Positions 1 to 26,073 of a stretch of DNA of 26,942 bases are shown here, piece by piece. The stretch is from a virus. The stretch covers positions 1 through 26,942 of the IMG/VR virus record IMGVR_UViG_3300046323_000777; one strand, written 5' to 3'. The notes under the pieces are model-generated. The model was not told where the DNA came from. It ran no database searches and saw only the letters and a list, made by a program, of their open reading frames with translations. The translations under genes were made by a program, and so were the position numbers. Each line of letters begins with the position of its first letter. Positions within the stretch are counted from its first letter, which is position 1.

Positions 1-523
1 CATATACGGTAGATTGATGCGGTATTTTTATGTCAAACTTGCCGAATTCGGCAAAGGTGACAGGCATTTTATATTGCTGTATGAGCCTAGCAACCAACTG
101 AGCACAGGCATCTACTTGCTCCTCCGGGTAAACTGGCCAATGCGATCCATTGCGCCAAGGTGCTTCGATGGTTTGACCTGTAAAAATAGGGCCGTTGGGA
201 TGTAGCCAACGCTTCCCATCTTTTTGTGGAAATAGAAAACCCTCGTTGACCAATTCTATCCCAATGGAACGGCGATTAAAATCCAAATTGGATGGATGCC
301 GAAGCCCCAAATGATGCGCCCAAAAACGGTTATCAAAACACTGGATAATAGTGCCATCTTTGGCGATGACGTATGCCGTGCCAATACGCTCAGGCTGCAT
401 TGACCACCATTTCAAGGGACTTTGCGCAGTACTACTCACCGTATGATGGAGTACTATATTTTTTTTAGGGAAAACCTGCCGGAAGTATTGCGTAGCGGCG
501 AGGTGTTGTTCTACGATCTTCAT
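1..523 (-). CDS. N-acetylmuramoyl-L-alanine amidase (endolysin), C-terminus cut by window edge
   Basis: The reading frame is open from an ATG at 523 to the left edge (174 codons seen). It begins MKIVEQHLAATQYF and contains the amidase_2/PGRP signature: NIVLHHTVSST with the first zinc-ligand histidine, then GTAYVIAKDGTIIQ, WAHHLG, and SIGIELVNEG. Proteins of this fold cleave the bond between N-acetylmuramic acid and L-alanine in peptidoglycan. The second zinc histidine and catalytic lysine or aspartate region normally lie nearer the C-terminus and are outside the window. No signal peptide is visible, so it is probably a cytoplasmic endolysin released by a holin. It follows a minus-strand terminator, so it may have its own promoter or rely on read-through. 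Family assignment is secure; the role in lysis is inferred from the phage context. Confidence 0.9.
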   Translation of the reverse strand, partial: MKIVEQHLAATQYFRQVFPKKNIVLHHTVSSTAQSPLKWWSMQPERIGTAYVIAKDGTIIQCFDNRFWAHHLGLRHPSNLDFNRRSIGIELVNEGFLFPQKDGKRWLHPNGPIFTGQTIEAPWRNGSHWPVYPEEQVDACAQLVARLIQQYKMPVTFAEFGKFDIKIPHQSTVY

Positions 524-565
524 AAGGCAAAAATGAGGCTACTATAAAGCCCACTAAAGGACAGC

Positions 566-598
566 AAAAAGCCCCATTCTGATTACTCAAAACAGGGC
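566..598 (-). terminator. Rho-independent terminator
   Basis: Read on the minus strand, GCCCTGTTTTGA and TCAGAATGGGGC form a 12-bp stem with three G-U pairs and a GTAA loop, followed by five T. The T run exists only on the minus strand. It would end transcripts that start at the promoter near 900, before the amidase gene. Confidence 0.7.
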
Positions 599-712
599 CA
601 ATCCCAAAAAACCGAATGAAGTAAAAATGTGTACTCTATCTTTAAGCACCTCAACAAAATCAGTAAGCCTACCGAATAGTCCCCCTCTCTTTAGGTTATT
701 TACTTCGCCCAT
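587..712 (-). CDS. Possible 41-residue small protein
   Basis: ATG at 712 opens a 41-codon frame beginning MGEVNNLKRGGLFGRL and ending in a hydrophobic FGFLGLALF. The stop codon lies inside the stem of the terminator at 566-598. No Shine-Dalgarno-like sequence precedes the start, as is common in Bacteroidota. The hydrophobic end could be a short membrane-seeking peptide such as a lysis accessory, but nothing proves translation. The alternative is that the whole region is untranslated RNA. Confidence 0.3.
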   Translation of the reverse strand: MGEVNNLKRGGLFGRLTDFVEVLKDRVHIFTSFGFLGLALF

Positions 713-787
713 ATCCCATGATACGAACTGGTAAATATGTCATACTGATTTGTTGCTGTACTATATATATTCTTTTGAGCAGAATCC

Positions 788-815
788 GGAGGGATAGTTC
801 GTTTACTACCCCTCC
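788..815 (-). other. Hairpin in the 524-921 transcript
   Basis: On the minus strand GGAGGGGTAGT pairs with ACTATCCCTCC (11 bp, loop AAACGA). The one imperfect pair is G-U on the minus strand and A-C on the plus strand, which favours an RNA made from the minus strand. The 5' arm carries a GGAGG sequence, but no start codon follows at the right distance. Confidence 0.6.
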
Positions 816-886
816 TTCAACTATAATCTCATGATAAGTGGCATTTAAAATACCCCGAGCCAGCAGTAACCCAGGGCTTGTTGATA

Positions 887-916
887 CAAAGGTATATCAT
901 TTGATAGACTTTGCAA
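887..916 (-). promoter_or_regulatory. Repressor-controlled promoter P(O1)
   Basis: On the minus strand, TTG (914-916), exactly 19 bases, then TACCTTTG (887-894) is a perfect Bacteroidota housekeeping promoter. The 18-bp operator O1 (892-909) fills most of the spacer and overlaps the first three bases of the -7 element. It directs transcription leftward from about 880, just past the stop codon of the 169-residue gene. Confidence 0.75.
892..909. promoter_or_regulatory. Operator O1
   Basis: GTATATCATTTGATAGAC: inverted arms GTATATC and GATAGAC around four bases, with one arm mismatch. It matches O2 (14472) at 16 of 18 bases and has the same position relative to its promoter as O2 and O3. The likely ligand is the repressor encoded at 14557. 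Confidence 0.75.
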
Positions 917-921
917 AATAT

Positions 922-1431
922 TTATTTTGCATTAAAAACTCGTTTTGCGATTTCCACTGTTTGACCAGGAAACTCATTAAAAGAGCCGTGCAATATATCG
1001 CATATTTTACTTAGTTCGTAGCAGTTTTTATTGCTGGTAAGGGCTTGACGGAAATCTTCATCAGATAAGTCGATCCAGTGTTGGAGTAATTCTTCCTTCC
1101 AAATTACGGTACAAGTAATTATTTCACCACAAGTCTTGCAAGGGCAAAATCCTTCATGCTCTTTGGTTTCCTCTATCTCTGACTCAAACCGAACAAAGTC
1201 ATCGGGTCGTTCAGCAGTGTCATTTTCTTCCAAATCCGAGACTACTTTTTTAATACACGACTCACAGTAGTCATCAGTGGCGGTTGGGTCGTAAGTATTG
1301 ACCCAACCTACCTGATCTATGTAGGTAACATAATTGCATGTTTTTTTAGGCGTATAAAGCCGTGCTTTAGATTGCAATTTATCTACTGCAAAAGTGAGCA
1401 TCTCTATGTTGTTGCGTAATGCCTTATTCAT
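922..1431 (-). CDS. Uncharacterised cysteine-rich protein, probable zinc site
   Basis: A 169-residue soluble acidic protein that I do not recognise. It carries cysteine pairs C56-x2-C59 (YCESC) and C98-x2-C101 (CKTC), with extra cysteines at 32, 96 and 107. Four cysteines in two CxxC pairs suggest a structural zinc ribbon or treble-clef site. The C-terminal half (EELLQHWIDLSDEDFRQAL) is helical. It is the last gene of a five-gene minus-strand group and follows the 207-residue membrane protein by five bases. No catalytic residues can be named. Confidence 0.65.
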   Translation of the reverse strand: MNKALRNNIEMLTFAVDKLQSKARLYTPKKTCNYVTYIDQVGWVNTYDPTATDDYCESCIKKVVSDLEENDTAERPDDFVRFESEIEETKEHEGFCPCKTCGEIITCTVIWKEELLQHWIDLSDEDFRQALTSNKNCYELSKICDILHGSFNEFPGQTVEIAKRVFNAK

Positions 1432-1436
1432 CGTTT

Positions 1437-2060
1437 TTAGTTGAATGTGGTATCTCTACCATTTGATTTAATATAGATGTTGTATTGTTCGATTGTTTGG
1501 CTTTGTGCTTTGGTTGTGGGTGTTGTTGGCTGTGGTTCATCTTGCTGATCCTCCTTGAGGAATGAATACAACACGACTAAAGCGCCAAAACCGATGACTG
1601 CGCCAATAAAATAGCCCACCCATTCTCCTATGATAGTAAAAGCCGTAGTGAGGCCAGCAGCCACCCCGGTAAGGATGCTGCCAGCCGCCACTACTATCAA
1701 CAAAACAACTACAACCAATCCTCCAGCACAAATCACGAATACAAACAAGGGACGGAACGCGGAAACAATATCGGCGGAAGAAACGATTTCTAATTCCGTG
1801 GCTTTCCGCGTAGGCTCTACTGGTGACGGAATGGAAAACCCCGCGAATGGCCCCGGCAAATATGTTCCGTCCACCCACTCCGATCCACGCGGAATAGAAC
1901 ATACCTCGCGAAATAGTTCCTCGTTGTTTTCCGCCACCGCATTTCGAAGTATATGCCGCTGATGCGGAAAAACCTTGACCGCTATGGCCAATGCTTCATC
2001 CTTTTTCCCTTGTGTGAATAGGGCATCAATGGTTGCCCTTCCTGTATCGTACTGATTCAT
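1437..2060 (-). CDS. Uncharacterised protein with two membrane segments
   Basis: This 207-residue protein has a soluble N-terminal region (residues 1-100) that starts with a helical segment (TIDALFTQGKKDEALAIAVK) resembling a TPR-like hairpin. Two long hydrophobic stretches follow at about 105-130 and 137-166, rich in Gly, Ala and Val. The tail is polar, with DEPQPTTPTTKAQSQTIEQ. I recognise no family. It is in the group of early genes with membrane segments, six bases from the next gene. A role in superinfection exclusion or membrane-bound replication is possible but not shown. Confidence 0.65.
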   Translation of the reverse strand: MNQYDTGRATIDALFTQGKKDEALAIAVKVFPHQRHILRNAVAENNEELFREVCSIPRGSEWVDGTYLPGPFAGFSIPSPVEPTRKATELEIVSSADIVSAFRPLFVFVICAGGLVVVVLLIVVAAGSILTGVAAGLTTAFTIIGEWVGYFIGAVIGFGALVVLYSFLKEDQQDEPQPTTPTTKAQSQTIEQYNIYIKSNGRDTTFN

Positions 2061-2065
2061 TGTGC

Positions 2066-2551
2066 TTAATTATTTATGTCAAAAATATAGGTGCGTTTCT
2101 TTGGGTCTTTTTGTCCATTGAATGCGCGGCGACCTTGTTGGTTAAGACCGATCTCGCCCTTGTCGGTTTTCATGGTGGTTTCCATGTTGGTTTCCCATGC
2201 GTTGACGCGCTTGCGGTGTTCGGATTCTACGAGATCAACCCAGTCTTGAAACTCGATAAACATAGTTGCATTCTGTGTGCGTGTACGGTATATCTCCAAG
2301 TGGATATCATCTGGAGTAATAAATATTTTACCTGCACGACGAATGTTTTCTTTTAGCCTGTAGTAGGCATCTTCGACATCGGGATCGCCGATATATCGGC
2401 TACGAATAAGAACGGGGCGTGTGTGCCTTGCAGCGGCTTCCAGTTCAGCTATTTCGGCTTCGCGGTCTTGGCGGTCGTTCCACCAGTTGGCCACGGGCGA
2501 CCAGATGAATAAGCCAGCGGCTAAGATGAGTAATAGTGTGGTGAGAAACAT
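2066..2551 (-). CDS. Uncharacterised membrane-anchored protein
   Basis: 161 residues. An N-terminal membrane anchor (FLTTLLLILAAGLFIW, residues 2-17) is followed by a charged coiled-coil-like stretch (DREAEIAELEAAAR) and a soluble domain of about 120 residues. The layout of anchor, coil, then soluble domain is reminiscent of phi29 p16.7, which tethers replicating phage DNA to the membrane, but I see no sequence match. The start codon lies just downstream of the TTAGTG repeat array, so its transcription or translation is probably tied to that array. Confidence 0.65.
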   Translation of the reverse strand: MFLTTLLLILAAGLFIWSPVANWWNDRQDREAEIAELEAAARHTRPVLIRSRYIGDPDVEDAYYRLKENIRRAGKIFITPDDIHLEIYRTRTQNATMFIEFQDWVDLVESEHRKRVNAWETNMETTMKTDKGEIGLNQQGRRAFNGQKDPKKRTYIFDINN

Positions 2552-2567
2552 GTTGTTGTTGTGTATT

Positions 2568-2694
2568 TTAGTGTATAAATTAGTGTGTTTTAGTGCCTAA
2601 ATTAGTGTATTAGACACTAACACTAAAAACTCGTAATGTGCTGATAATCAATATAAACACACACTAATTTTGTAGCATTAGTGTCTTTTAGTGC
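2568..2694. repeat. Array of TTAGTG-type short repeats (iteron-like)
   Basis: Six copies of TTAGTGT or TTAGTGC (starts 2568, 2580, 2590, 2602, 2678, 2688) and three inverted copies ACACTAA (2614, 2620, 2661) fill the gap between two genes. Neighbouring direct copies are 10-12 bases apart, about one helical turn. It lies in the region upstream of the gene starting at 2551 and next to the HTH-containing gene ending at 2695. Candidate roles are a cooperative protein-binding site, a secondary origin or a partition site. Confidence 0.75.
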
Positions 2695-3186
2695 CTACGT
2701 ACCACTTTCACCCCTCTCGCGCGATAGGGCAGCCCTGAATGCAGCCAATGACGTGGCTGCGTAGGACTTACTAAATCCGGTGATCATGGCCATTTCATCA
2801 GCGGTGGTATTGCCGTTCTTGGAATGGTATGTGGCTTTGAATACTTCGGCTGTTGCCTGTGGTACGGATGGCTTACGGCGTGCCAACTCTTCGAGGTCGA
2901 AACTGGTAAGATGGCTTACGACGTTGGCTTCTACAGCCTTACCCTTTGCGAATGCGCGTATTGTGCTGAACTCGGTAGAGTTATTGTCCTTGAAAGCCAG
3001 TGGCGTGGCTTTCATCACGTTTCCTGTAGGATTGTGTCCTACAAATTGCGTGTGCGGATCGCTTTTATCGCGTTCAGCCCTTGGTTGTGGCTTGCATTCT
3101 ATCTGAATGAAGTACCGTTGGTGATCGGCTGGCACGTATTGTGGCCATAACCATTGCTGTATCGCGTCCAAAATACCATTTTTCAT
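2695..3186 (-). CDS. Uncharacterised protein with C-terminal HTH-like segment
   Basis: A soluble 163-residue protein. The last 40 residues (TADEMAMITGFSKSYAATSL followed by AAFRAALSRER) read as a helix-turn-helix with its recognition helix, so DNA binding is plausible. The N-terminal part (QQWLWPQYVPADHQRYFIQI) has no recognised family. It sits five bases after the 299-residue membrane protein and directly before the TTAGTG array, which makes it a candidate binder of that array. That link is inference from proximity only. Confidence 0.65.
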   Translation of the reverse strand: MKNGILDAIQQWLWPQYVPADHQRYFIQIECKPQPRAERDKSDPHTQFVGHNPTGNVMKATPLAFKDNNSTEFSTIRAFAKGKAVEANVVSHLTSFDLEELARRKPSVPQATAEVFKATYHSKNGNTTADEMAMITGFSKSYAATSLAAFRAALSRERGESGT

Positions 3187-3191
3187 TGTGT

Positions 3192-4091
3192 TTACGACTT
3201 TTTGATGATGTTGAGTAGTGAAATCTCAAATAAAAGAGCCAATACCGGTAATCCGATACCGAGCGACCAGGCAAAAGTGATATCGTTCATCGCTGTGGTA
3301 TGGTTCACGTGATTGACAAAGTCCTGACTGGAGTGCTTATTAATGGCTACTGCATTACAGCATATTTCTATGATCAAGGTGATGGCCATTGTGGTATAGG
3401 CGAGCCATTTATCCACTTTGGCTCCAGCACTAAGCAGTAGTAATGGACTGCCACAAATCACCAAGGCGATAACATACGACCAATAACCTGTTGGAGAGGA
3501 TTCATTGATGACTTCGCCTACTGATATGACCGAAGCGATGATCAAAACTAATACTGCACCGGAATGGACAAGTGCGGAGGAATAGCGCCGCGCAAACGTT
3601 GGAGGAATTCCGCTTCCGCCAGTTGGAGGAATTCCGCTTCCGCCAGTTGGAGGAATTCCGCTTCCGCCAGTTGGAGGAATTCCGCTTCCGCCAGTTGGAG
3701 GAATTCCGCTTCCGCCAGTTGGAGGAATTCCGCTTCCGCCAGATGGAGGAATTCCGCTTCCGCCAGATGGAGGAATTCCGCTTCCGCCAGATGGAGGAAT
3801 TCCGCTTCCGCCAGATGGAGGAATTCCGCTTCCGCCAGTTGGAGGAATTCCGCTTCCGCCAGTTGAAGGAATTCCGCTTCCGCCGGTTGGAGGAATTCCG
3901 CTTCCGCCGTTCCGTGGCTTCCATTCCTTCAAAAGAATATTTTGCTGCTCTGTGGTAAGTATGGTATTCTTACTGAATGCTACTGAGGGGAATAGATCAG
4001 GCCACCGCTTTCGGAGCGTATCAATAGAGCGACCAACCTCTAAGGCCATTTGCTCTACCGATTTTTGCTCATTTAATTGTTGCATACCCAT
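3192..4091 (-). CDS. HTH-like N-terminus, 8-residue repeat spacer and four membrane segments
   Basis: 299 residues in three parts. Residues 10-60 look like a winged-helix or MerR-like DNA-binding segment (SVEQMALEVGRSIDTLRKRW, then LTTEQQNILLKEW). Residues 62-165 are thirteen tandem copies of GGSGIPPT/S. Residues 170-299 contain four hydrophobic segments (about 173-195, 204-224, 228-250, 270-294). Such a protein could hold DNA at the inner membrane on a flexible leash. I know of no described protein with exactly this layout. The ATG at 4091 is supported by an upstream promoter (4124-4152) and an unstructured CAA-rich leader. It opens the five-gene minus-strand group. DNA binding is inferred from the motif only. 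Confidence 0.75.
   Translation of the reverse strand: MGMQQLNEQKSVEQMALEVGRSIDTLRKRWPDLFPSVAFSKNTILTTEQQNILLKEWKPRNGGSGIPPTGGSGIPSTGGSGIPPTGGSGIPPSGGSGIPPSGGSGIPPSGGSGIPPSGGSGIPPTGGSGIPPTGGSGIPPTGGSGIPPTGGSGIPPTGGSGIPPTFARRYSSALVHSGAVLVLIIASVISVGEVINESSPTGYWSYVIALVICGSPLLLLSAGAKVDKWLAYTTMAITLIIEICCNAVAINKHSSQDFVNHVNHTTAMNDITFAWSLGIGLPVLALLFEISLLNIIKKS
3597..3908 (-). repeat. 24-bp minisatellite, 13 units
   Basis: Thirteen contiguous 24-bp units encode the repeated octapeptide in the 299-residue protein. Each unit contains GGAATTCC, so each carries a GAATTC site. Four adjacent units (4-7 from the N-terminus) encode Ser and most others Thr at position 8, which points to growth by duplication of blocks. 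A 24-bp unit keeps the frame, so copy number could vary without breaking the gene. Confidence 0.95.
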
Positions 4092-4122: not shown

Positions 4123-4192
4123 GCAAAGTTACAAGGTTTTTTGTATAAACAAAAAAATATTTTACATTTTACAAAAAAACTTGCAACTTTGC
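4123..4192. promoter_or_regulatory. Palindromic divergent promoter region
   Basis: Arms 4123-4145 and 4170-4192 are inverted copies of a 23-bp box (GCAAAGTTACAAG, then mostly T, ending TTTGTA), 21 of 23 identical, centred near AAATATTT. Leftward promoter: TTG (4150-4152), 18 bases, TAACTTTG (4124-4131), for the 299-residue gene. Rightward: CAACTTTG (4184-4191), for the gene at 4196, where the start of transcription should fall on or next to the ATG. A third copy of the box is at 8530-8552. The spacers are conserved, which sigma factor alone would not require, so a shared regulator is likely. Confidence 0.7.
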
Positions 4193-4195
4193 GGC

Positions 4196-4459
4196 ATGAA
4201 TAAACTAGTTGACTTTAAAGATGGGTTTGAATCTTTCTACAAATACGTAGAAAGCAGACTGAAACCAGATGGCCGCTGGGACAGTGGCCGTATTCCGAAC
4301 GAACTTAAACAAGCGTTGTATAGCGTGCAAGGAAAAGGAAGAGACAATCTAGGACCCGCACGTGCGCAAAGGCTGTTTGATAAGTATGCACCCGGAAGAT
4401 ACCGCGTTATCCTCGCAGTGGAGGAAATAGAGCAGGTGCCGGAAAAAGCAAAGGAATAG
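4196..4459 (+). CDS. Moron-like small protein of unknown function
   Basis: 87 residues, soluble and charged (MNKLVDFKDGFESFYKYVES ...). ATG 4196 is chosen because the -7 element ends at 4191; the frame extends upstream to 4094 but that part is the promoter and a GTT repeat. The message would be leaderless or nearly so. It is one of only three plus-strand genes, with the repressor and integrase, and has its own promoter and terminator inside a region transcribed the other way. This is the pattern of a moron expressed in the lysogen. The segment GPARAQRLFDKYAPGRYRV is basic and could touch nucleic acid. Function unknown. Confidence 0.7.
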   Translation: MNKLVDFKDGFESFYKYVESRLKPDGRWDSGRIPNELKQALYSVQGKGRDNLGPARAQRLFDKYAPGRYRVILAVEEIEQVPEKAKE

Positions 4460-4476
4460 AACGGAATAATTAACGT

Positions 4477-4523
4477 AAAAAAAAATAGGTGTATCGCGGA
4501 AGCGTTACACCTATTTTTTTTTT
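4477..4523. terminator. Bidirectional terminator
   Basis: A run of A followed by TAGGTGTA pairs with TACACCTA followed by a run of T (17 bp in all); an inner CGC/GCG pair closes a GGAA tetraloop. T runs exist on both strands, so it serves the convergent genes ending at 4459 (+) and 4527 (-). Confidence 0.93.
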
Positions 4524-7665: not shown

Positions 7666-8181
7666 TTAGTTAAAATCAAAAGACAACTGATTAGGCTCTG
7701 AAACCTTAATGACTTCGATTGTATCTTTGATGGCCTTTATCTGAGCGTTCAACTCTTTGCGCTCGTTCTCGAGGCCAAGCAATTGATTCTCTTTTTCTAG
7801 GATCAGAATCAGTTTCTTTTTCTGCTGTACAGGTTCAAGAAAAAATTTGTCGTAGATAATGTTATAAACCTGCTCTTGGTACTTAATAAGTTGCTCTGTG
7901 GCTTCAGGTCGAACTTTCCTGGCATCAATACAAAATAACCAACCAAAGAAATATTTAAGTGGTAAAGTAAGCATTTGATAACGCTTCCCATCGCTTCCAG
8001 TTGTGGTGTTCTCCACCATAACTGAACCCAAAATTGGATGGTTTTTCAAGGTTGAGACTTGGCTCGAATGGTCAATACCAAGCACCTCGCAGATTGGTTT
8101 AATAGGGATAAATACTGTTTCGCCTTCTTGTGTAAAATTAATTTCAACTTCGTTGATGTTTATTAAATTCATGTTGTCCAT
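7666..8181 (-). CDS. Phage antirepressor-like protein, P22 AR N-terminal type
   Basis: 171 residues. Residues 5-115 match the P22_AR_N domain pattern: a strand-turn with VFIPIKPICEVLGIDHSSQ, then LPLKYFFGWLFCIDARKVRP and a helix EQLIKYQEQVYNIIYDKFF. The rest is a coiled coil (KKKLILILEKENQLLGLENE ... IKAIKDTIEVIK). P22 Ant binds and inactivates the prophage repressor. Here the repressor at 14557 has no self-cleavage domain, so an antirepressor would be a natural induction switch. Many proteins with this domain have other or unknown roles, so the target is an inference. The coiled coil suggests oligomerisation. Confidence 0.8.
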   Translation of the reverse strand: MDNMNLININEVEINFTQEGETVFIPIKPICEVLGIDHSSQVSTLKNHPILGSVMVENTTTGSDGKRYQMLTLPLKYFFGWLFCIDARKVRPEATEQLIKYQEQVYNIIYDKFFLEPVQQKKKLILILEKENQLLGLENERKELNAQIKAIKDTIEVIKVSEPNQLSFDFN

Positions 8182-8529: not shown

Positions 8530-8560
8530 GCAAAGTTACAAGTTTATTTGTAAAGCACAA
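8530..8560 (-). promoter_or_regulatory. Promoter with third copy of the 23-bp box
   Basis: Minus strand: TTG (8558-8560), exactly 19 bases, TAACTTTG (8531-8538). The 8530-8552 segment matches each arm of the palindrome at 4123-4192 at about 20-21 of 23 bases. TTACAA-N6-TTGTAA within it is an inverted repeat that could be a regulator site. Confidence 0.75.
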
Positions 8561-8584: not shown

Positions 8585-9418
8585 TTAAAATAGAGAGTAC
8601 TGCTTTTTACACTCCAATAAAGGGTCATAGTTTAACCATATCATTTCAGATGTTACCCTTCCTTTACCTCGAGACATAGGAACCATTTTGGCATCGAATT
8701 TAATTTTGTAAAAATCGCTATAAAGGCTCTTATATAATTCACTTTCGTAGCCCGATAAAATCACTTTACCTTTTATCGACTTTAATTTATCTGCAAGTAT
8801 TACATGACCTGCTTGATTCATTTCAAACAGATAATCATTTGACGATTTGCGTACCGATGGCAAATAAGGTGGATCCAGATAAAATACAGTTTCTTTGGAG
8901 TCTAATTTGCTAATTAAATCAATTGCAGGCCTATTCTCAATTTGTATGTTCCTTATGCGATTAGAAATATCTAGCAATCCATTCACTTTAGTGTAGAAAT
9001 TGAATGGCGCATATGAAAAGTTGTTGATCACAAACTTTAGATTTTTAGACCAAGATTTGTTATTCTTTTTCCCTGCTTTAGAAATATCCATATTGACTCT
9101 TACAAAGAAACATCTTGCTCGCTCAATTGGGCATTCCGATATAGGCAGCCATGCTTGTTCAAACTCCGCCCTTGAATATGGTGTTAATTGGAGTAGTTGG
9201 ATCAACTCCATAGGATGATCTCTAAGAACTCTAAAAAAGTTTACAATATCGCCATTCAGATCATTTAGCGTTTCAATTCGAGACTTTGGTTTGTTTAAAC
9301 CTACGGCAAAACTTCCAGAGAACGCTTCTACATAGTGATCATGATCTGGGATAATATCAACTATCTTATCACACATTCCAATTTTACCGCCATAGTACGC
9401 AAATGCTATTTTCTTCAT
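8585..9418 (-). CDS. DNA adenine methyltransferase, Dam/D12 class (first copy)
   Basis: 277 residues. FAYYGGK (6-12) and the AdoMet-binding motif AFSGSFAVG (32-40) open the protein, and the catalytic motif DPPY is at 182-185, giving the alpha-class N6-adenine methylase order of the D12 family (Dam, T4 Dam, DpnM). The usual FFGGG in the first motif is changed to FSGSF, while the rest is intact. It would methylate adenine in phage DNA, possibly GATC, but the target cannot be read from the sequence. There is no endonuclease next to it, so it is an orphan enzyme, probably for protection from host restriction or for replication control. ATGA overlap with the 88-residue gene upstream. Confidence 0.92.
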   Translation of the reverse strand: MKKIAFAYYGGKIGMCDKIVDIIPDHDHYVEAFSGSFAVGLNKPKSRIETLNDLNGDIVNFFRVLRDHPMELIQLLQLTPYSRAEFEQAWLPISECPIERARCFFVRVNMDISKAGKKNNKSWSKNLKFVINNFSYAPFNFYTKVNGLLDISNRIRNIQIENRPAIDLISKLDSKETVFYLDPPYLPSVRKSSNDYLFEMNQAGHVILADKLKSIKGKVILSGYESELYKSLYSDFYKIKFDAKMVPMSRGKGRVTSEMIWLNYDPLLECKKQYSLF

Positions 9419-9681
9419 AATTCGAGTTTTGATTGATGATTAAGAAATTGATGGTATGAAACATCGAGTAAGCAGCGACCTTGGTATTTTTTCGCATAAT
9501 CGTACCAGCGCATCATCTTTTGGCAGTATTCGTGTGCGTCATCATATCCAAGGTATTCTGCTACTTCGGAGAATTTCCAGTCGATAAATCCGCGCTTGCG
9601 TTCAATCCACTTGGATGGATCAGCCTTACAAGCGCGGATATAATCTACTGGATCAATTGGCGGATGCAGCGGATCGTTCAT
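9415..9681 (-). CDS. Small hypothetical protein
   Basis: 88 residues, soluble, rich in aromatic residues (DWKFSEVAEYLGYDDAHEYC). Its middle resembles a small helical domain with an EVAEYLGYD helix-turn pattern, which could bind DNA, but this is weak. It overlaps the methylase start by four bases and the upstream 175-residue gene by 29, so the three are translated as a unit. Not recognised. Confidence 0.6.
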   Translation of the reverse strand: MNDPLHPPIDPVDYIRACKADPSKWIERKRGFIDWKFSEVAEYLGYDDAHEYCQKMMRWYDYAKKYQGRCLLDVSYHQFLNHQSKLEL

Positions 9682-10638: not shown

Positions 10639-10700
10639 GATAATGTATGTTTGATGATGAAAAAATGAAGGGATTTCAAAACACCCCCCTTTGTTTTTTT

Positions 10701-10910
10701 TGGACTTTTTTACTGGACTTCTGGACTTTCCTTTGTAATTGCCTCATAATCAATTACTTATTTAGTCCAAAATCAGTCCAAAACGTATTCTAAAACTGGA
10801 CTGATTTTGGACGTTTTGAACTAATTGAAAAACTGGACTGGTTTGGACTGATTTTGGACTGAATAACTTACTGATTTACAATGAGTTATAAAGGTTAGTC
10901 CAAAAGTCCA
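10701..10910. repeat. TGGACT repeat array, candidate replication origin
   Basis: Between SSB and primase, 379 bases without a gene hold seven TGGACT (10701, 10714, 10722, 10797, 10834, 10844, 10855), one TGGACG (10808) and four inverted AGTCCA (10764, 10775, 10897, 10905). Several neighbouring copies are 10-13 bases apart, about one helical turn. Past the array at 10911-10980 the sequence becomes very AT-rich, with a run of alternating TA, as in DNA-unwinding regions. Position between the replication genes and repeat layout fit an iteron origin. The same repeat recurs at 16326-16400. Confidence 0.7.
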
Positions 10911-11017
10911 GCGTTTTCCTTTTTTTTTAATAGGGTACTTGTTTATAAAGAGAGATAGTATATATATTATATGTGTTTTCCCTTTAAGTTACTGATAATC
11001 AAATAGTTATAGTGATT

Positions 11018-14466: not shown

Positions 14467-14498
14467 CAAATGTATATCTTTTGATAGACACCGTGCAA
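14467..14498 (-). promoter_or_regulatory. Early lytic promoter P(O2)
   Basis: Minus strand: TTG (14496-14498), 21 bases, TACATTTG (14467-14474). The spacer is two bases longer than usual. O2 (14472-14489) covers most of the spacer and the first three bases of the -7 element, the same geometry as at O1. It drives the 80-residue gene and the primase. Confidence 0.7.
14472..14489. promoter_or_regulatory. Operator O2
   Basis: GTATATCTTTTGATAGAC lies between the divergent repressor and early genes. It blocks the early promoter and overlaps the beginning of the repressor message. Confidence 0.82.
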
Positions 14499-14556
14499 GG
14501 ATTTTTGTAATTATTTTATATCATTTTCAAACTTTAACATTTTAAACATTTAAAAC

Positions 14557-14930: not shown

Positions 14931-14953
14931 GTATATCAAATGATATACTTTTG
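14931..14953 (+). promoter_or_regulatory. Operator O3 with integrase promoter
   Basis: O3 is GTATATCAAATGATATAC (14931-14948), with perfect 7-base inverted arms. It overlaps the first three bases of a -7 element TACTTTTG (14946-14953), as in O1 and O2. There is no TTG at the normal distance upstream, so the promoter may be weak or need an activator. It should drive the integrase with a leader of about 200 bases. Confidence 0.65.
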
Positions 14954-18269: not shown

Positions 18270-18370
18270 ATAAGTGTGTGATTTAAAAACAGTTATAAAA
18301 GTTTATCTAAAGAGCCGTTACAACCATCAAAAGGGACTGTGCGGGCGCGGTTTAGGTTTTATTTAATTAA

Positions 18371-18392
18371 ATAACCCCAATTTTTGGGTTAT
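18371..18392 (-). terminator. Possible weak terminator or processing hairpin
   Basis: ATAACCC and GGGTTAT pair around eight bases, followed on the minus strand by TTTAATTAAAT. It lies between terminase and the next gene. The T run is poor, so read-through is probable. Confidence 0.4.
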
Positions 18393-18400
18393 CTGTGGCA

Positions 18401-19849
18401 CTATCTTAGATCGTAGAAGTGTTCTCCTACGTTGTTTGCATCACTATACTTCCAATAGTGTTTAGCATCCATATAGTTGTCCATCGTATCACTTAGATGC
18501 GGGGCCCATTGCGGAGGGAATGATGGATCAGTCTCCATTGCTTTATCTTTCTGAAAGTCTCCTTTAATCGGGACCATTTCAATGGACTTAATCAAGTCTT
18601 CTGCTGCGGTTGATTGTAGCCTTATCTTCGGTAGGTACCATTCCGATTCATTGAATACAGACTCAAAGAAGAAATGCCTTTGCTTATGCTTCTTTGCTTG
18701 GGTACCAGGTATTACTTTGTCTTCGGCTACCCATCCACGGGCAAGGAAAGCCTTCGTGATGATCTTGTATAGATCATCATCGGCATATGGATTACTATCC
18801 TTACCGCGTGGCTCGCCCCAGAGCCTTATATATTTGAACTGATGATCCGCAAAGCGATTACATATAGCCTCTACTACACCTATTACTTTGTTCTGGTTCT
18901 GTGTAGTAAAGAATGAACCTAAGCAGTATTCTGTATTAAGATGTTCCTGCCATACGCTTGCACAGTTGAAGTTCCCACCAAAGTCCCACGAAGCCTCCAG
19001 TAACTCATTACTCCTTACTTCATAGCCTTTGTTGTATCCATGCTTATCCCTATCAAATGTATGATAAAATGATCGAGGTAGTTTTCTTATGCGTATATTC
19101 TCTACCTCTGACATGTACTCGCTTAGCCCCATTGTTGCTTTTGTTCGATCAAACCAAGCCTTACCTAAAACGACCTCGTTATCCTTTGCACTTGTCCAAA
19201 GAAATAGAACATCATCCGGGTTGGCGATGTGTTCATTCTCAAACTCCAGTATGTACTGGCCATCGGTAGTGGTAGGTTGGCTGGTGAGTAGGAATATAGA
19301 GTGGTGTAGCGTACTATCAAAACGATATAGGTTATCGCGAACCATAGGCACAATTATCCTTCTAAATGATGTCGCTTTCACGAACGCCGCTTCATCCACA
19401 ATGGCCATATCATAACTGCCACCCCTTTTCCCTATTGGTTTTGCAGTAGAAATAAATACTATTGTAAAACCATTAAAAAAAGTCATGGTATTATCATAAC
19501 TTTTTGGCGGTGAATAAGGATGGCAAATTGTTTGATCCCACCAATCCAATGGCTTTTTGCCAATTACATAGTGTATGTTTTCAATAAAGCCCATCTCCTC
19601 CAATTTCGATAAAACTGGAGGAAGTGTGCTATTCATGATCTGCTCTAAAGTTGTGGAAGAAAACAAGCATTTGCCTCTTGGCAATTCTTCAACCGCTCTC
19701 CTAATAATTAATGCTAATCCACTTGATTTGCCAGCACCACGACCACCCACCCAAACTTTTGTTTTTTGTGGCGCTATAGCAAACTTTATCTGCATTGGAT
19801 TAAAATAAACCTCTTTCGGCTTATTCGCTATCTTCTTTCCTGGAGTCAT
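18401..19849 (-). CDS. terL: Terminase large subunit
   Basis: 482 residues. ATPase: Walker A GGRGAGKS (35-42), Walker B MAIVDEA (149-155, with the DE pair), coupling motif LLTSQP (188-192 region). Nuclease domain: WDFGGNFNC (first acidic Asp at 289) and later PRGKDSNPYADD, which holds further acidic residues. It cuts concatemeric DNA and pumps it into procapsids through the portal. Length is normal. It overlaps the small-subunit candidate by 29 bases. The assignment is strong. Confidence 0.95.
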   Translation of the reverse strand: MTPGKKIANKPKEVYFNPMQIKFAIAPQKTKVWVGGRGAGKSSGLALIIRRAVEELPRGKCLFSSTTLEQIMNSTLPPVLSKLEEMGFIENIHYVIGKKPLDWWDQTICHPYSPPKSYDNTMTFFNGFTIVFISTAKPIGKRGGSYDMAIVDEAAFVKATSFRRIIVPMVRDNLYRFDSTLHHSIFLLTSQPTTTDGQYILEFENEHIANPDDVLFLWTSAKDNEVVLGKAWFDRTKATMGLSEYMSEVENIRIRKLPRSFYHTFDRDKHGYNKGYEVRSNELLEASWDFGGNFNCASVWQEHLNTEYCLGSFFTTQNQNKVIGVVEAICNRFADHQFKYIRLWGEPRGKDSNPYADDDLYKIITKAFLARGWVAEDKVIPGTQAKKHKQRHFFFESVFNESEWYLPKIRLQSTAAEDLIKSIEMVPIKGDFQKDKAMETDPSFPPQWAPHLSDTMDNYMDAKHYWKYSDANNVGEHFYDLR

Positions 19850-20399
19850 AGAATACCTGTGGGTCTGATGATATAATTAACTTTGGGATAGTCAATTTAC
19901 TAGGATCAAGTTTTTGGGTTTGATCATAAAACCCGTTTAATTTTGAAATATCGTCAAGCAATTTCCTTGTCATTTCCATGTATTTCATGTCGGTACCTTC
20001 CTGCTCTATTCCATCATCATCTTTATATTTATAAATTGCGTTTTGGTAAGCCTTATCTGCCAAAATTGCCAATCGTTCAACTATTTTCTGCTTATTCAGG
20101 AATTGATTCACTTGAATAAATGAACCAAACAGTTCCTGCGCTTCATCAAACAGTTGATTCGCAAAATTCAACGAAATACCCGGCTCTGTGGCTATAATTT
20201 TACTAACCGCCACTGCTCTTGATATTTCATTGACAGAAAGGTAAAAAGTGTTTTTAACCTTCTCGAAGTGATCCCAATCGCGTTGACTTAACTCAAATTT
20301 TTGCGGTTCAACTAAGTACATCCTTAGTCGCTCCAGTCGCTCGGCTTTGTCAAAGTCCTTATCCGTGTACGTTTTCAAGATCGTGCTTCTTGACCTCAT
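19821..20399 (-). CDS. Probable terminase small subunit
   Basis: 192 residues, helical and charged, directly upstream of and overlapping the large subunit. Sequence: KAERLERLRMYLVEPQKFEL early on, then EISRAVAVSKIIATEPG, whose layout fits a helix-turn-helix followed by an oligomerisation region, as in DNA-recognising small subunits. No signature motif confirms it, so the call rests mainly on position. The start at 20399 lies 41 bases inside the previous gene. Confidence 0.6.
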   Translation of the reverse strand: MRSRSTILKTYTDKDFDKAERLERLRMYLVEPQKFELSQRDWDHFEKVKNTFYLSVNEISRAVAVSKIIATEPGISLNFANQLFDEAQELFGSFIQVNQFLNKQKIVERLAILADKAYQNAIYKYKDDDGIEQEGTDMKYMEMTRKLLDDISKLNGFYDQTQKLDPSKLTIPKLIISSDPQVFYDSRKEDSE

Positions 20400-21018
20400 T
20401 TTCTAACATTTTTTTGTAAACCTCCAATTTTTTGAGGTTTTTGTCATGTTTATCCAGTTGCTTCTTTTGATCTTCGGTTTTGGTTTCAATATGGTATAAT
20501 TCAGTTATTTTCTTAGTCGTAATCGATATATTCGCTCTTACGGAATTCAACTTTTTTACCAGTTTAACCGGATCAACAGGTATTTGGAATTCATCATCAT
20601 CATCGTGCATTTTTCCGTTCTTTTTGTATGCAGACATTCGTTGTAAATGTGCCTCAATTTGCACCTGAATTGCAACTATTTTTTCTACAACTTTTGCCCT
20701 TTGCTGATCGGTCTCACATTCGTGCAGTTCGTTACTATGCTTCGCCCTTATTACAAAAAGATTGCTCTTTTGTATGTACATTTTCTTTAGCACTTCATCG
20801 TCGGTATCTGAAGGGGTTAATTGCTCCTCCAGATCATCTTCATCATCTTCATCTGTAATGGCTTCATCTTTTTCTAAGTCGTTAATTTGCTGGATTACAG
20901 TCAAAATACGCCTTTGATTCAGTAGGCTTGTGCCTTTCCGCAAAGTAGATAATAGCGGATGATTTGGGTAATCATCCGCTATTCTTAGTAAAAATGCATC
21001 GTAGGTTTGGTTCGTCAT
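20359..21018 (-). CDS. Coiled-coil protein between portal and terminase
   Basis: 219 residues, highly charged, with a run DEDDEDDLEEQ and long heptad-like stretches (KKITELYHIETKTEDQKKQL, KNLKKLEVYKKMLENEVKKH). The ATG overlaps the portal stop codon (ATGA). A scaffold, chaperone or terminase helper is possible; I recognise no family. The mix of acidic run and basic coils is unlike its neighbours. Confidence 0.6.
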   Translation of the reverse strand: MTNQTYDAFLLRIADDYPNHPLLSTLRKGTSLLNQRRILTVIQQINDLEKDEAITDEDDEDDLEEQLTPSDTDDEVLKKMYIQKSNLFVIRAKHSNELHECETDQQRAKVVEKIVAIQVQIEAHLQRMSAYKKNGKMHDDDDEFQIPVDPVKLVKKLNSVRANISITTKKITELYHIETKTEDQKKQLDKHDKNLKKLEVYKKMLENEVKKHDLENVHG

Positions 21019-22322
21019 ATCGTAACGGGCTGTTGACCAACGGGGCTTTCATCAAGTGTAGTGAGTTCAATGTCCCTGAATCCTATTTTAATCCTAGGAT
21101 CCCAACCATTTCTTTTCCGAGGAATATCAAAGAATTTGACAATGATCGACCTTGGTACAGGGGCCTTAATAGCAAGGAAAAGATTGAACGAGTTCCTTGT
21201 CTCTGATCCACTCCCTAATCGCCCAGGCGTTTGTATGCTGGCCAGTGCTGGAGGAATGCCTTGGCTGGAAATATTCGCATCATTTGACTTGTCAAACAAC
21301 TTCAACAATGCCTCATCTTTGATATCGACTTGAAATGGAGTAATCTTGATACCGGGAAAATCTTTACCCAGTTGCCTGTTTAGTTCATAACTGGTAACGA
21401 CCGCCCTACCTGCACCATCTTCTGCGGCTAGGAAGGAGTTGAGTTTCTTTATGAAATTTTCACGCGCTAACGTTTCGGCCTTTTTGGACTTATCAACGTC
21501 TTCTGGAGTCTGTGCCGCCGATGACGTATTTTTGAAGTAATCCAAAGGTATTTCGATATGCCAGCGGATTAGATATCCATTGTCCAGGTTTCGGTTGTGG
21601 AAAATTGGCACCCGGTTCGATAAAGAGATCCAGTCTTTACCACCCCACCAGCGTGGCGTAAAGTAATAGTCATTGTGGAAAAGATCGTCTCCACTATGTA
21701 CCATAAACTTAGGTTGTACCTGGTCTTTTTTATAAGCAGGTACTTTTTTTATGGTGACATTTTTGGCTCTAGTATCCTCCCATTTGCCGCAAATGAAATA
21801 ATCATTTATCACTCCATCTTCATCCTGCTCTCCACATCGAGCATGACGGCACTCAATGTTTTTCATTGAGGTGATACGCCCTCCTAATTCACCCACATAT
21901 TCAGTAAATATATTTCCGTGTGTGATAAGGCTTTTGCATGCGCCTCTTACATACGCTTCCACGTCAATATCATCGAAAAAAGATTGAATTTCCGGAGGAG
22001 TATCTACAGGTATTTTCTTTATAACACCATCTACAATCTGCTCAACATAGCAATAAAGCCCTCCTGCGACATATATATCCCGCTTTGTTCCTAGTAGTTC
22101 CGGGATTATGTTGTTTTCTCCAATAAGTGCCTCGCGTTCCTGCGGCAATGTATTACGCGCTCCCCAATACATTATTTTTGCGGTGCTGCCATCCTCCAAA
22201 GTGACGGTATTTAATTTGCCTTTTTCAGGATGGATTTTACCATTTGCGGTGCTTCTAAAGGAGACCATTACGCCAGTCCCTGCGGGCTTTAAAAGCCAAA
22301 TATTATCTGATAGTTGTTCCAT
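21015..22322 (-). CDS. Portal protein
   Basis: 435 residues. The C-terminal half carries the portal pattern SQGIPPALASIQTPGRLGSG followed by SETRNSFNLF, the long helix where related Bacteroidota portals read Y/Q-G-I-P-P-x-L-x-G. The N-terminal part has RDIYVAGGLYCYV and VRGACKSLITHGNIFTEYVG, the wing/stem strands. It forms the ring through which DNA enters the capsid and to which the tail docks. The short coiled-coil gene and terminase follow with overlaps. Size is at the low end of the range. Confidence 0.8.
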   Translation of the reverse strand: MEQLSDNIWLLKPAGTGVMVSFRSTANGKIHPEKGKLNTVTLEDGSTAKIMYWGARNTLPQEREALIGENNIIPELLGTKRDIYVAGGLYCYVEQIVDGVIKKIPVDTPPEIQSFFDDIDVEAYVRGACKSLITHGNIFTEYVGELGGRITSMKNIECRHARCGEQDEDGVINDYFICGKWEDTRAKNVTIKKVPAYKKDQVQPKFMVHSGDDLFHNDYYFTPRWWGGKDWISLSNRVPIFHNRNLDNGYLIRWHIEIPLDYFKNTSSAAQTPEDVDKSKKAETLARENFIKKLNSFLAAEDGAGRAVVTSYELNRQLGKDFPGIKITPFQVDIKDEALLKLFDKSNDANISSQGIPPALASIQTPGRLGSGSETRNSFNLFLAIKAPVPRSIIVKFFDIPRKRNGWDPRIKIGFRDIELTTLDESPVGQQPVTI

Positions 22323-22324
22323 TA

Positions 22325-22648
22325 CTAATGAATTACTTTGTATCCGTTAAATGATAAAATGCACGCGATCAATGGCGTTAGGTATTCTCCATTGTCATAG
22401 TCCGAAATAGGAAGTGTGCCTTTCTCGATATGAAGGGCGCGTTTCCTTTGCGCATCTAGTTTAATCGAAGGCATTTCCCCTGCTGTTTTGGAACGGCCAT
22501 AGACGGCCTTACCGACCGTTTTTATAGTCCCTCTGGTTTTCCCAGTGATCCTTACAAATTGAATAAAAAATGTCCGGCCAGAATGCTCCCTGATTTCGGC
22601 CAACACTTGTTGGATTGAAATCTGACCGTTTTGTGTCATTATTTGCAT
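22325..22648 (-). CDS. Small protein upstream of portal, possible head-tail factor
   Basis: 107 residues from ATG 22648 (MQIMTQNGQISIQQVLAEIR); the longer frame from 22696 has a weak upstream part. The core GRTFFIQFVRITGKTRGTIK is familiar from small genes next to portals in Bacteroidota phages, whose function is unknown to me. The C-terminus PLIACILSFNGYKVIH is hydrophobic and short. The gene ends two bases before the portal start. I cannot assign a role. Confidence 0.55.
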   Translation of the reverse strand: MQIMTQNGQISIQQVLAEIREHSGRTFFIQFVRITGKTRGTIKTVGKAVYGRSKTAGEMPSIKLDAQRKRALHIEKGTLPISDYDNGEYLTPLIACILSFNGYKVIH

Positions 22649-22704
22649 TTGCAAATGTGCCAGCCTTGTTATTCCTGTATTAGGACAACATAACAAAGTG
22701 CTTT

Positions 22705-22739
22705 AATCAGGCTGGATTTAATTAAAATCCAGCCTGATT
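22705..22739. other. Perfect 15-bp hairpin at the end of the tape measure gene
   Basis: The last coding bases AATCAGGCTGGATTT (minus strand, encoding NQAGF) have a perfect inverted copy after a five-base loop; the TAA stop begins at the stem's edge. No T run follows on the minus strand. It probably acts as an mRNA stabiliser or RNase site between the tail and portal parts of the message. Confidence 0.75.
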
Positions 22740-25550
22740 CGTAATTACATTTACTCTTTTCCCTGCGGTTTCGATGTCGCTGTAAACTATTGATACAGAT
22801 AGTTTTTCCTGCCAATTATTCATATCCGAGCGAAGTGCGGAAAACTCGGAAATCAAGTGTTCTATCATCCCGCCGTTTTCGGAAGTTGAGGCGTTGGGTA
22901 AATTCACCGATGGCGTTGTATTTATGTTTGTTAAGCCTCCTCTTGCGAAATAAGCATCACCACGACCATTCATAGCATTGATATTGCTTAATTGGCGCAG
23001 CATCGGCGCATTGTGTCTGTTTATGATTGCAAATCCTTCATCTTTCTCTACCTCAAAGGAACTGCCATCACTCGCCACGACTTGTGTGCCACCATGCGCG
23101 TGGTATTTGCCACCAAAGAACCCGAATTTACCACGTGCGAACTTTGTCCCTTCTACCTTTTTGATCGCAATCAAAGCCCTTGCCGTTGCAGCACCGGCTT
23201 GAATACCGGCAAGTATATTACCTGCGATTGGGCCTAGTAATTGAGCAACTGGAGACTTCTGTGCATTGGCGAAAATACTAGAGACCTCACTTACCAGGTT
23301 GATGGTAATGTTCGCTTTTTGAAGTTCTTTGATGGTTGCGGCGTGCTTCTTTTTGCTGGCTTCGTCCCTTCCTAGTATCTCCGCAGCGACTGTAAAAATA
23401 TCTGAAGTAGTTTTTAATCCAGTCTGGAGTACTTCCGTCCTTAGTGCCTCCAATGCGCGCTCATTTTCTAAACGCTGCTTCCCAATCGTTGCCTCAACCT
23501 TTAATTTTTCATCCTCGCGGCGTTTTATCTCATCAACCTGTGGATTAGTACCCTCTTTCAATATGGCGATTTCCTGTGCAAGAAAATCGCGTTTCATCTG
23601 GAGCCGCTGCATTTCATACTGCTGCTCTACTGCGATGGTCTTTACTAACTTGTTTTTTACCGCATCAATTTGAACCTGCTGGCCAATCTCATCAACTGCC
23701 AGTGCCTGTAACTTTTGATTGGTAGGGGCTTGGTCGCTTGTTACCGGGCCTAATTGCCTTTGCGCTAAAGGCGACAATACGGCTACTCCTTTTCGCGAAT
23801 TATCGGCCTGCATTTGAGCCAATTCATTCTGCAACTTTAGAGCCTCAATGGACTGATCCTTCGCGTATTTTTTGTAAATTAAAAGGCTCTGCTCTAGTTG
23901 CTCCTTCTTGATGGCCACCAGTTCATTACCATACTGGACTTCATTCTTGGTGTTGGCCAATCTCTCGCCCTCCAGTATAGTTTCTTTCCGGAGCGTTGCG
24001 GCTTCTAAACCTTTCAGTTCTAATTCTAAAGCCTCCTTTGATTCTTTTTGAATTTGTTCCTTAGATTTCTTTGAGTTGGCCTTGATGATAGCAAATTGTG
24101 CATCATAGCCGCCACCGAACGCAGATGCAAGCCCTTTGCCTTCTCCGGTTGCCGCAGCCTTGTCAGCAGGGGCAATTTCGGGCTGTGGGCTTTTTACGCT
24201 TTTCCAGCCATCCACAACGCCTTGGGCTAAGTTAATGCCCACTCCAACCGGGTTAAGGTTTTCAAAAGCCGATCCAAAAGAAGATGCCGCCTTTGAAAAT
24301 TCGCCACTGAAAAGGTTTACAAATCCATCGGCTACCGCACCAATCCCTTTGACTACGCCGCTGATCGCGCTGGCAACCCCGCCAAACGCGGCTGAAACGA
24401 CCGCTCTAAAGTTCTCCGCTCCCTGTATCAAATTGTAAATAGATGTGCCAAAGTTGACGATCCATTCTACCACAGGAATGATGGCTCCCAATACTTTATT
24501 AAAGACAGGAATCATTCCAGTGCCAAGGCCATCCACGATTTCGGAAATACGAGCGCGGAGACGTGCCTTTTTCTCTTGCAAATCATCTACGCCTTTACTG
24601 AAGGCGTTATTCGCATTCGATGATTGCTTGGTGATCTGCTCGAGCGTGATCAAGGCTTCGGCTTGTCGACGTTCATCTCCAGTAAGTTTTTCCAAGCCCT
24701 TGCGCTTTAATTCTGCCTGAATGATGCTGTCTTTTACATCAATACCCAGTGAATTTAGCGCGTCGCGTTCACCTAGCAATGCCTTATTAAGGATTTCAGT
24801 GGCGGTTTTAGTGTCCACTTTCCCTTTAGTCCATCGAGACAACACACCTGCCTGGTTCACCAACTCAATACTGAGTTCAGCCGCCGTTTTTTGGGTGAAA
24901 CCCATTGGTGTTAAAAGATCGGCTACGTCGGTGGCCAGCCCTCTATATTCCCTGCGGCTTAGTCCAATTGCTGCGGAATTCTTTTCTGCAAAATCATTTA
25001 CAATAGAAATACTTTCGCCAAATACAGCAGCCATTTTTGTTTTCAAGGCTTCTGCATCCACACCAATGTCAAATACTTTTTTTAGCCCCTCCAGCAAACT
25101 ACTTAATCCTACTACGGCTAATGCAATAGGCCCCAACGCTGACAGAAAACCTTTCGCTCCAGTACTCATGGCCTCCCAAACTCCTTTCGCGTCGCTAAGC
25201 CCTCTGTTTTCAGAACGAATTGCCGAAATTTGAGCATTAACGGCTTTCAATTCTTGGGATAGAATTTTATACTGAGGAGCCGATTGAGGTATAAGCCGAA
25301 TAGTCTGCTCTAACTGTTTGGCTCGTTCGTTCAGTTGCGCTGGAGCCACCTTGGTTAAGTCGATTTTACCTAATCCTGCGGCGGAATTAACGATCTTATT
25401 GATTGATCCAGAAAGATCATCACCTTTCTTCTTTGCCTCATTTAACTCTTTGATAAACTGCTTGTTTTGAGTCACCAGTTTAGCATACTCACGACTTTCG
25501 TCCGTTAAAAAAGCAATGCTTATTTGTACTTTATCCTTTGATACTGACAT
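22722..25550 (-). CDS. Tail tape measure protein
   Basis: 942 residues. N-terminal coiled coil (1-115), hydrophobic stretch GFLSALGPIALAVVGLSSLL (about 134-153), then a region typical of TP901-like tape measures (SAAIGLSRREYRGLATDVAD, ALLGERDALNSLGI), long helices (500-760), another hydrophobic stretch (IFANAQKSPVAQLLGPIAGN), and a glycine-rich end with ARGKFGFFGGKYHAHGGTQV. It sets tail length; at the usual 0.15 nm per residue, about 140 nm is expected, which suggests a long non-contractile or contractile tail. It overlaps the preceding gene by 20 bases. Confidence 0.9.
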   Translation of the reverse strand: MSVSKDKVQISIAFLTDESREYAKLVTQNKQFIKELNEAKKKGDDLSGSINKIVNSAAGLGKIDLTKVAPAQLNERAKQLEQTIRLIPQSAPQYKILSQELKAVNAQISAIRSENRGLSDAKGVWEAMSTGAKGFLSALGPIALAVVGLSSLLEGLKKVFDIGVDAEALKTKMAAVFGESISIVNDFAEKNSAAIGLSRREYRGLATDVADLLTPMGFTQKTAAELSIELVNQAGVLSRWTKGKVDTKTATEILNKALLGERDALNSLGIDVKDSIIQAELKRKGLEKLTGDERRQAEALITLEQITKQSSNANNAFSKGVDDLQEKKARLRARISEIVDGLGTGMIPVFNKVLGAIIPVVEWIVNFGTSIYNLIQGAENFRAVVSAAFGGVASAISGVVKGIGAVADGFVNLFSGEFSKAASSFGSAFENLNPVGVGINLAQGVVDGWKSVKSPQPEIAPADKAAATGEGKGLASAFGGGYDAQFAIIKANSKKSKEQIQKESKEALELELKGLEAATLRKETILEGERLANTKNEVQYGNELVAIKKEQLEQSLLIYKKYAKDQSIEALKLQNELAQMQADNSRKGVAVLSPLAQRQLGPVTSDQAPTNQKLQALAVDEIGQQVQIDAVKNKLVKTIAVEQQYEMQRLQMKRDFLAQEIAILKEGTNPQVDEIKRREDEKLKVEATIGKQRLENERALEALRTEVLQTGLKTTSDIFTVAAEILGRDEASKKKHAATIKELQKANITINLVSEVSSIFANAQKSPVAQLLGPIAGNILAGIQAGAATARALIAIKKVEGTKFARGKFGFFGGKYHAHGGTQVVASDGSSFEVEKDEGFAIINRHNAPMLRQLSNINAMNGRGDAYFARGGLTNINTTPSVNLPNASTSENGGMIEHLISEFSALRSDMNNWQEKLSVSIVYSDIETAGKRVNVITNQAGF

Positions 25551-26073
25551 CGAACTGTTTTTTTATTTGTTCAGTAATTTTTTCTGGTATAGCACCTACA
25601 ACCCGGTTAAATAAATCGTTTATCGCGCCTGTTTTTGCCTTATTCCACCACGCCTTGCGCCTGTTTTTACCGTTTGATCGTTTGCGCGATATGCCCCAAG
25701 CGATATAAACCAAAGCCTTTTCTGGCACTTTTGTCAATCCCCTTTTTGACATATAGTTATCCGTGAACTTCCCCTCCAGCCCTTTCTTTTTTATCCAATC
25801 TACTATGTCTTGTATGTACTCGGCACCACCTTCTGCACTATTCAATCTTTTCATATCAAGGTATCGGCCATGATCCGAAAAGAATATAAGCACCTCCACG
25901 GCCTCTGCTCGTGCCTGAGCATTCATTTCTGCATCTAGCGAGTTGATTAAGTTACCCGATGATTCCGCTTTCCGCTTACGCAAAAAGGCTACTCGATTAG
26001 CGATAAACTCAGTCGCCCAAGCCTGCATTTCATCGTGTATTAAATCATTGAGTTCTTTTTGTTGCTCGATCAT
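25531..26073 (-). CDS. Tail completion protein-like
   Basis: 180 residues, basic C-terminus. The segment VPEKALVYIAWGISRKRSNG then NRRKAWWNKAKTGAINDLFN resembles the small basic proteins near tape measures in Bacteroidota phages (HK97 gp10-like in position and size). The N-terminal half is helical. It overlaps the tape measure start and, by four bases, its upstream neighbour. Function inferred from position and weak resemblance. Confidence 0.55.
   Translation of the reverse strand: MIEQQKELNDLIHDEMQAWATEFIANRVAFLRKRKAESSGNLINSLDAEMNAQARAEAVEVLIFFSDHGRYLDMKRLNSAEGGAEYIQDIVDWIKKKGLEGKFTDNYMSKRGLTKVPEKALVYIAWGISRKRSNGKNRRKAWWNKAKTGAINDLFNRVVGAIPEKITEQIKKQFDVSIKG

Follow-up and report, generated by a model that had tools for sequence, protein, structure and literature searches.

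A putative membrane-bound DNA-binding protein with a 24-bp repeat linker in a temperate phage

Why would a phage join a DNA-binding-like N terminus to a membrane domain through a long, highly repetitive peptide, and does such a protein act on DNA from the membrane? DNA-binding proteins located at the membrane have been described in bacteria (CadC and RocS) and in few phages (phi29 p16.7). We addressed this question for a gene at 3192-4091 (-) of IMG/VR record IMGVR_UViG_3300046323_000777, the whole 26,942-nt stretch of which was analyzed (referred to here as the window). The open reading frame starts with ATG and encodes 299 amino acids (aa), comprising a head, a repeat linker, and a domain with four transmembrane (TM) segments (Table 1). 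Counting the units confirmed the 13-unit, 104-residue GGSGIPPT/S leash described in a sequence-only reading of this DNA (13 units of 8 residues; residues 62 to 165), the copy number of 13 being that of a single assembly. The four membrane segments described in the same reading were recovered as four hydrophobic peaks after the array, as assigned from hydropathy alone. Lysine and arginine residues are located on the head side of these segments (positive-inside pattern), from which the head is predicted to be cytosolic; the longest predicted outer loop is approximately 27 residues. The fold predicted for the whole protein was useless (pLDDT 45). Because the frame has its own promoter, ends 5 nt ahead of the next gene, and has a homolog of its four-TM (4TM) part, we consider it a real gene.

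Table 1. Coordinates of the target gene, its parts, and surrounding features in the window
Feature	Positions	Strand	Basis
Separate promoter with repressor-type operator TATCAAATGATA, upstream of endolysin and late genes	887-916	-	
169-aa gene, last of operon	922-1431	-	
207-aa gene, two TM segments	1437-2060	-	Hydropathy
161-aa gene, one N-terminal TM segment	2066-2551	-	Hydropathy
Nine TTAGTGY iterons in 143-bp AT-rich gap inside operon (163-aa/161-aa genes)	2568-2694		
163-aa gene, no family, start 5 nt after target stop	2695-3186	-	
Target CDS, 299 aa (head, repeat linker, four-TM domain)	3192-4091	-	
TM4 core, residues 278-296; conserved TFAW..G just before and within TM4	3204-3260	-	Kyte-Doolittle; alignment
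TM3 core, residues 232-250; E..CN conserved with homolog	3342-3398	-	Kyte-Doolittle; alignment
TM2 core, residues 206-224	3420-3476	-	Kyte-Doolittle hydropathy
TM1 core, residues 173-191	3519-3575	-	Kyte-Doolittle hydropathy
Tandem array, 13 × 24 bp, residues 62-165 (GGSGIPPT/S)	3597-3908	-	Tandem Repeats Finder and unit list
Head, residues 1-61, winged-HTH-like; helices 12-19, 23-33, 47-56	3909-4091	-	AF2 single sequence, pLDDT 81; Foldseek
Inverted repeat with arms at 4123-4145 and 4170-4192 (pairing at 21 of 23 bases), spanning both divergent promoters	4123-4192		
Target promoter, Bacteroidota type, TTG-N18-TAACTTTG	4124-4152	-	
TACAA-N6-TTGTA dyad within target promoter spacer	4130-4145	-	
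TACAA-N6-TTGCA dyad upstream of divergent 87-aa gene	4170-4185	+	
Divergent 87-aa gene, no family	4196-4459	+	
Terminator between target unit and early operon (stem with 95% complementarity between its 21-nt arms; T tracts on both strands)	4477-4522		
Third dyad copy, upstream of 92-aa ORF and then antirepressor gene (7666-8181)	8537-8552	-	
Fourth, weaker dyad, TACAA-N6-TTGCA, overlapping -33 element of early promoter	14494-14509	-	

Tandem Repeats Finder placed the array at 3598-3908 and described it as having a period of 24 and 13.0 copies, with 98% matches, 0 indels, and a score of 580. Eight of the 13 units read GGSGIPPT, four (units 4 to 7) read GGSGIPPS, and one (unit 2) reads GGSGIPST. 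Only four types of substitution occur among the copies, which include runs of identical units (units 4 to 7 and 8 to 12). Outside the T-to-S block, the deviating units (1, 2, and 13) are those at the edges, which is the usual pattern for recent homogenization. We conclude that the array is a young, homogenized in-frame minisatellite. Its G+C content is 59%, compared with 44 to 45% in the two ends of the gene.

A second record, IMGVR_UViG_3300046328_001044 (26353 bases), matched the window at 18364-26942 (99.9% identity) and at 1-3630 (100%) and provided an additional 14.1 kb. On the basis of this overlap and identity, the two records represent one temperate phage of approximately 41 kb, with genes for a tyrosine integrase, repressor, primase, portal, large terminase, and tape measure. 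The domain types and the distant phage relatives point to a Bacteroidota phage. The second record terminates 34 bp into the repeat array, suggesting that the assembler stumbled there, and independently confirms the junction between the array and the 4TM domain. In the order of transcription, the portal gene follows the tape measure gene and precedes the small and large terminase genes (18401-25550), unlike in Leef_1. Just before the tape-measure region, the second record (L028) also encodes a 180-aa protein (9001-9543 [-]) with a signal-peptide-like start and several hydrophobic stretches, which is another holin candidate.

The head, when folded alone (AF2, single sequence), gave a confident model with a pLDDT of 81 and three helices in the order of a winged HTH (wHTH). 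Its top fold match in the PDB (Foldseek) was RacA-DNA (5i44), followed by NmlR, CadR, CarH, MtaN, pSK1 Par (8csh), gpNu1, and RdfS. These further matches were mostly MerR-type proteins and included an excisionase, and 27 of the 50 best PDB matches were DNA-binding HTH proteins by manual count. Most of the named matches among viral models (BFVD) were likewise HTH proteins (e.g., a Salgado HTH protein; probability, 0.99; TM-score, 0.71). The best E values were 0.65 in the PDB and 0.029 in BFVD, and none reached 0.001. HTH and MerR family models (Pfam, NCBIfam, and PHROGs; up to an E value of 10) did not match the head. Judged from its model, the head is likely a DNA-binding wHTH. The earlier description of the N terminus as HTH-like is thus supported by the shape of the model and by its nearest folds, most of which are DNA binding, but no fold or sequence search gave a significant match.

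When 400 genomes from the order of a Bacteroidota genome with a related terminase were searched, a sole homolog was detected, in genome G655 (E value, 1.1e-5; 29% identity over TM1 to TM4). This 220-aa protein (L110:1462-2124; IMGVR_UViG_2509276062_000001, the same prophage as that of G655) is encoded by a prophage related to the target phage, as its primase, terminase, portal, capsid, and protease genes match. It has a head (TRQQIVSALVAGVPEAELKLRFPNFSTRTWTNYRRDARQ) that is HTH-like by eye and had no match among family models, a nonrepetitive linker of approximately 43 residues, and four segments that share E..CN and TFAW..G with the target. Its gene lies in an early operon, preceded by an HNH gene and the genes for replication; the target and homolog genes are both located between the replication and structural modules. 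The homolog comes from the same phage group and has the same order of parts and a homologous 4TM domain but differs in its HTH-like head and in its linker, which is repeat free and less than half as long. Given this conserved order, the more than twofold difference in linker length, and the lack of a repeat, the sequence comparison indicates that the head-linker-4TM plan is common to both proteins and that the repeat of the target is a recent local expansion. The proposal that leash length may vary between phages was therefore borne out (104 versus approximately 43 aa). Unrelated N termini, which the sequence-only reading had regarded as evidence against itself, were encountered in part, i.e., the two heads could not be aligned convincingly, yet each resembles an HTH domain.

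Wider searches returned little beyond this phage. When viral contigs were scanned for exact peptides of the 4TM domain, the head, two operon neighbors, and the large terminase, the same phage alone was detected, and the repeat pattern occurred in 23 stretches of viral contigs that, the same phage excepted, were single chance copies. Among known phages and plasmids, the whole protein had no match, and the head had one weak match (E value, 0.1) among known phages. In 395 genomes of the phylum, the 4TM domain gave three weak matches, with no convincing relative on inspection, and the head gave nothing significant. No counterpart of the target was found in six related prophages. DUF2637 (PF10935), considered as a possible look-alike of the target, matched neither in the window (where the controls gave no signal) nor in the Pfam scans. 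The members of the 4TM family thus found are two distinct proteins, with 395 to 400 genomes sampled per search.

Promoters of the Bacteroidota form (TTG-N18-21-TAnnTTTG) were present at 11 sites in the 41 kb, compared with 2.3 expected from shuffled sequences. The score of the inverted repeat between the target and the divergent gene was not reached by any of 40 shuffles. A 22-bp element, TACAAANAAACTTGYAACTTTG, is shared by the target promoter, the promoter of the divergent 87-aa gene, and a site at 8552 (-), with an expectation of 0.00 occurrences. Its core is the TACAA-N6-TTGYA dyad, which is distinct from the repressor-type operators and could be owned by other phage regulators. The second operator class, TATCAAANGATA, occurs at 14475-14486 (early/repressor), 14934-14945 (integrase), and 895-906 (late/endolysin promoter) and is probably the operator of the phage repressor. 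The target promoter does not have this operator, and we therefore regard the target operon as separate from the early and late genes.

The target is the first gene of a five-gene operon. Nine of the 19 TTAGTGY copies in the 41-kb map lie in the gap inside this operon, four of them consecutive and spaced 10 to 12 bp apart; simulations never gave more than three per 150 bp. Clusters of other iterons (GTTCCAA, TGTAACA, GTTACAA, and similar) were observed in the related prophages of G489, G695, G006, G632, G769, and G655 and in L032, apparently a few kilobases upstream of the protease/capsid genes. We considered co-occurrence as an argument that the TTAGTGY iterons are the head's own site and rejected it, because related prophages that yielded no homolog have such clusters as well. 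Elsewhere in the window, a candidate replication origin lies between the genes for the single-strand binding protein and the primase (10698-10916), a gap with approximately 12 AGTCCA/TGGACT motifs and an inverted repeat of 70 nt.

Several known systems resemble parts of this protein. RocS, RacA, and pSK1 Par carry an N-terminal MerR-type wHTH head of approximately 55 to 60 aa; the 61-aa head of the target may be of this type, and RacA and Par were among its fold matches. These same two structures (5i44 and 8csh) were reported as the two relatives of the head of RocS, in which a MerR-type wHTH is joined to a membrane helix (PMC11500499); the target has four hydrophobic segments, according to hydropathy, that may attach its head to the membrane. 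In contrast, RocS, RacA, and Par have a central coiled coil, which serves as an oligomerization domain, and an amphipathic or disordered C terminus, whereas residues 62 to 165 of the target are Gly/Ser/Pro repeats, followed by four TM segments, and no sequence homology to the three proteins was found. The order predicted for the target, with a cytosolic winged HTH, a disordered linker, and the membrane, is that of CadC and ToxR, which differ from the target in having a single TM helix, a periplasmic sensor domain, and another type of wHTH; with four TM segments and outer loops of at most approximately 27 residues, the target has no equivalent of this sensor. The phage protein phi29 p16.7, unlike the target, has only one TM segment and binds DNA through its C-terminal domain, and family scans of the target revealed no p16.7 homology. 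It binds viral DNA and helps to place replication at the membrane (PMC4974454), a role to which that proposed here would be analogous.

Our leading reading, which we hold tentatively and at somewhat short of an even chance, is that the target is a membrane-integrated MerR-type wHTH protein on a disordered leash with a 4TM base, which would regulate and/or anchor the (pro)phage locus. The cytosolic head (residues 1 to 61) would be the DNA-binding domain, and the Gly/Ser/Pro leash would link it to a base in the inner membrane. The head would bind specific phage DNA, the candidates being either the TTAGTGY iterons or the TACAA-N6-TTGYA dyads, among them those at the divergent promoter of the target gene itself, and the protein would act on the bound DNA from the membrane. 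In CadC, head and membrane are successfully joined by a disordered linker (approximately residues 107 to 159), which positions the heads on DNA (PMC5430869), as the linker of ToxR does, and a protein of this kind is captured from the membrane by DNA (PMC6320335). We infer DNA binding, the site bound, membrane insertion, tethering or regulation, and free drift of the leash length. That the protein holds DNA at the membrane, as originally proposed, is one construction of these features, which would equally well fit a transcription regulator bound to the membrane or a membrane effector.

In the effector reading, which is unlikely but has an appreciable chance of being correct, the 4TM domain would be the active part, for example by excluding other phages or changing the state of the membrane in the lysogen, in the manner of RexAB or Sie proteins. 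The head would gate this activity by sensing a partner or DNA. Polar residues within TM3 and TM4 are conserved across approximately 29% identity, suggesting that the base does more than anchor; the target promoter, without a repressor-type operator, may be on in the lysogen; and the operon neighbors are small orphan membrane proteins. However, no exclusion or Rex family in Pfam, PHROGs, or NCBIfam matched, and the mobility signature of accessory genes was not seen. We assign a rather small chance to the head being a helical protein-binding domain similar to IF2_N that recruits a partner to the membrane and never touches DNA. The highest TM-scores of the head in the PDB were those of the N-domains of translation factor IF2 (0.64 to 0.69 at 1.7 to 1.9 Å), which makes a non-DNA role possible, and the HTH matches were not significant; nevertheless, DNA-binding wHTH proteins ranked first and formed the majority of the fold list, and the different head of the homolog also appears HTH-like by eye.

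The location of the target operon, with three membrane proteins ahead of a downstream Amidase_2 endolysin, would also accommodate a lysis protein, a holin or antiholin carrying a cytosolic extension, that forms a cassette with the 161- and 207-aa membrane proteins. This is improbable, as the endolysin has, in the 523-916 (-) region, its own promoter at 916 with a repressor-type operator, followed by a leader of approximately 365 nt in which a strong terminator-like hairpin (599-570) precedes the endolysin start, reminiscent of the terminated leader of the lambda late promoter. In addition, the G655 homolog lies beside replication genes and approximately 14 kb from the likely endolysin of its phage (an M15-like candidate identified by eye); the location in a holin-type cassette is thus not conserved, and a lysis role is unlikely. 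Thirteen near-identical direct repeats could instead function as DNA, i.e., as an iteron array or centromere-like site within the gene with the linker peptide as a by-product, and BldC provides a precedent for the binding of direct repeats by a MerR-like domain (PMC5859096). The frame is kept over 312 bp, however, the array is GC rich (59% versus 41%), and the homolog's linker has no repeats, leaving this reading with very little probability.

Returning to the regulator or anchor reading, the target may be a new kind of phage protein that acts on DNA from the membrane, and its family is named by none of the libraries searched (Pfam, NCBIfam, and PHROGs). A bolder extension, which we regard as speculative and probably incorrect, is that it belongs to a new class of phage membrane tethers that share one 4TM base but carry exchangeable DNA-binding heads on linkers of freely evolving length (here, by in-frame minisatellite expansion), each phage holding or regulating its own DNA at the membrane via its own site. 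If true, the combination of a four-pass base, swappable heads, and a repeat leash would make it possible to study how the DNA of a lysogenic phage is placed or regulated at the membrane and if slippage tunes the length of the leash.
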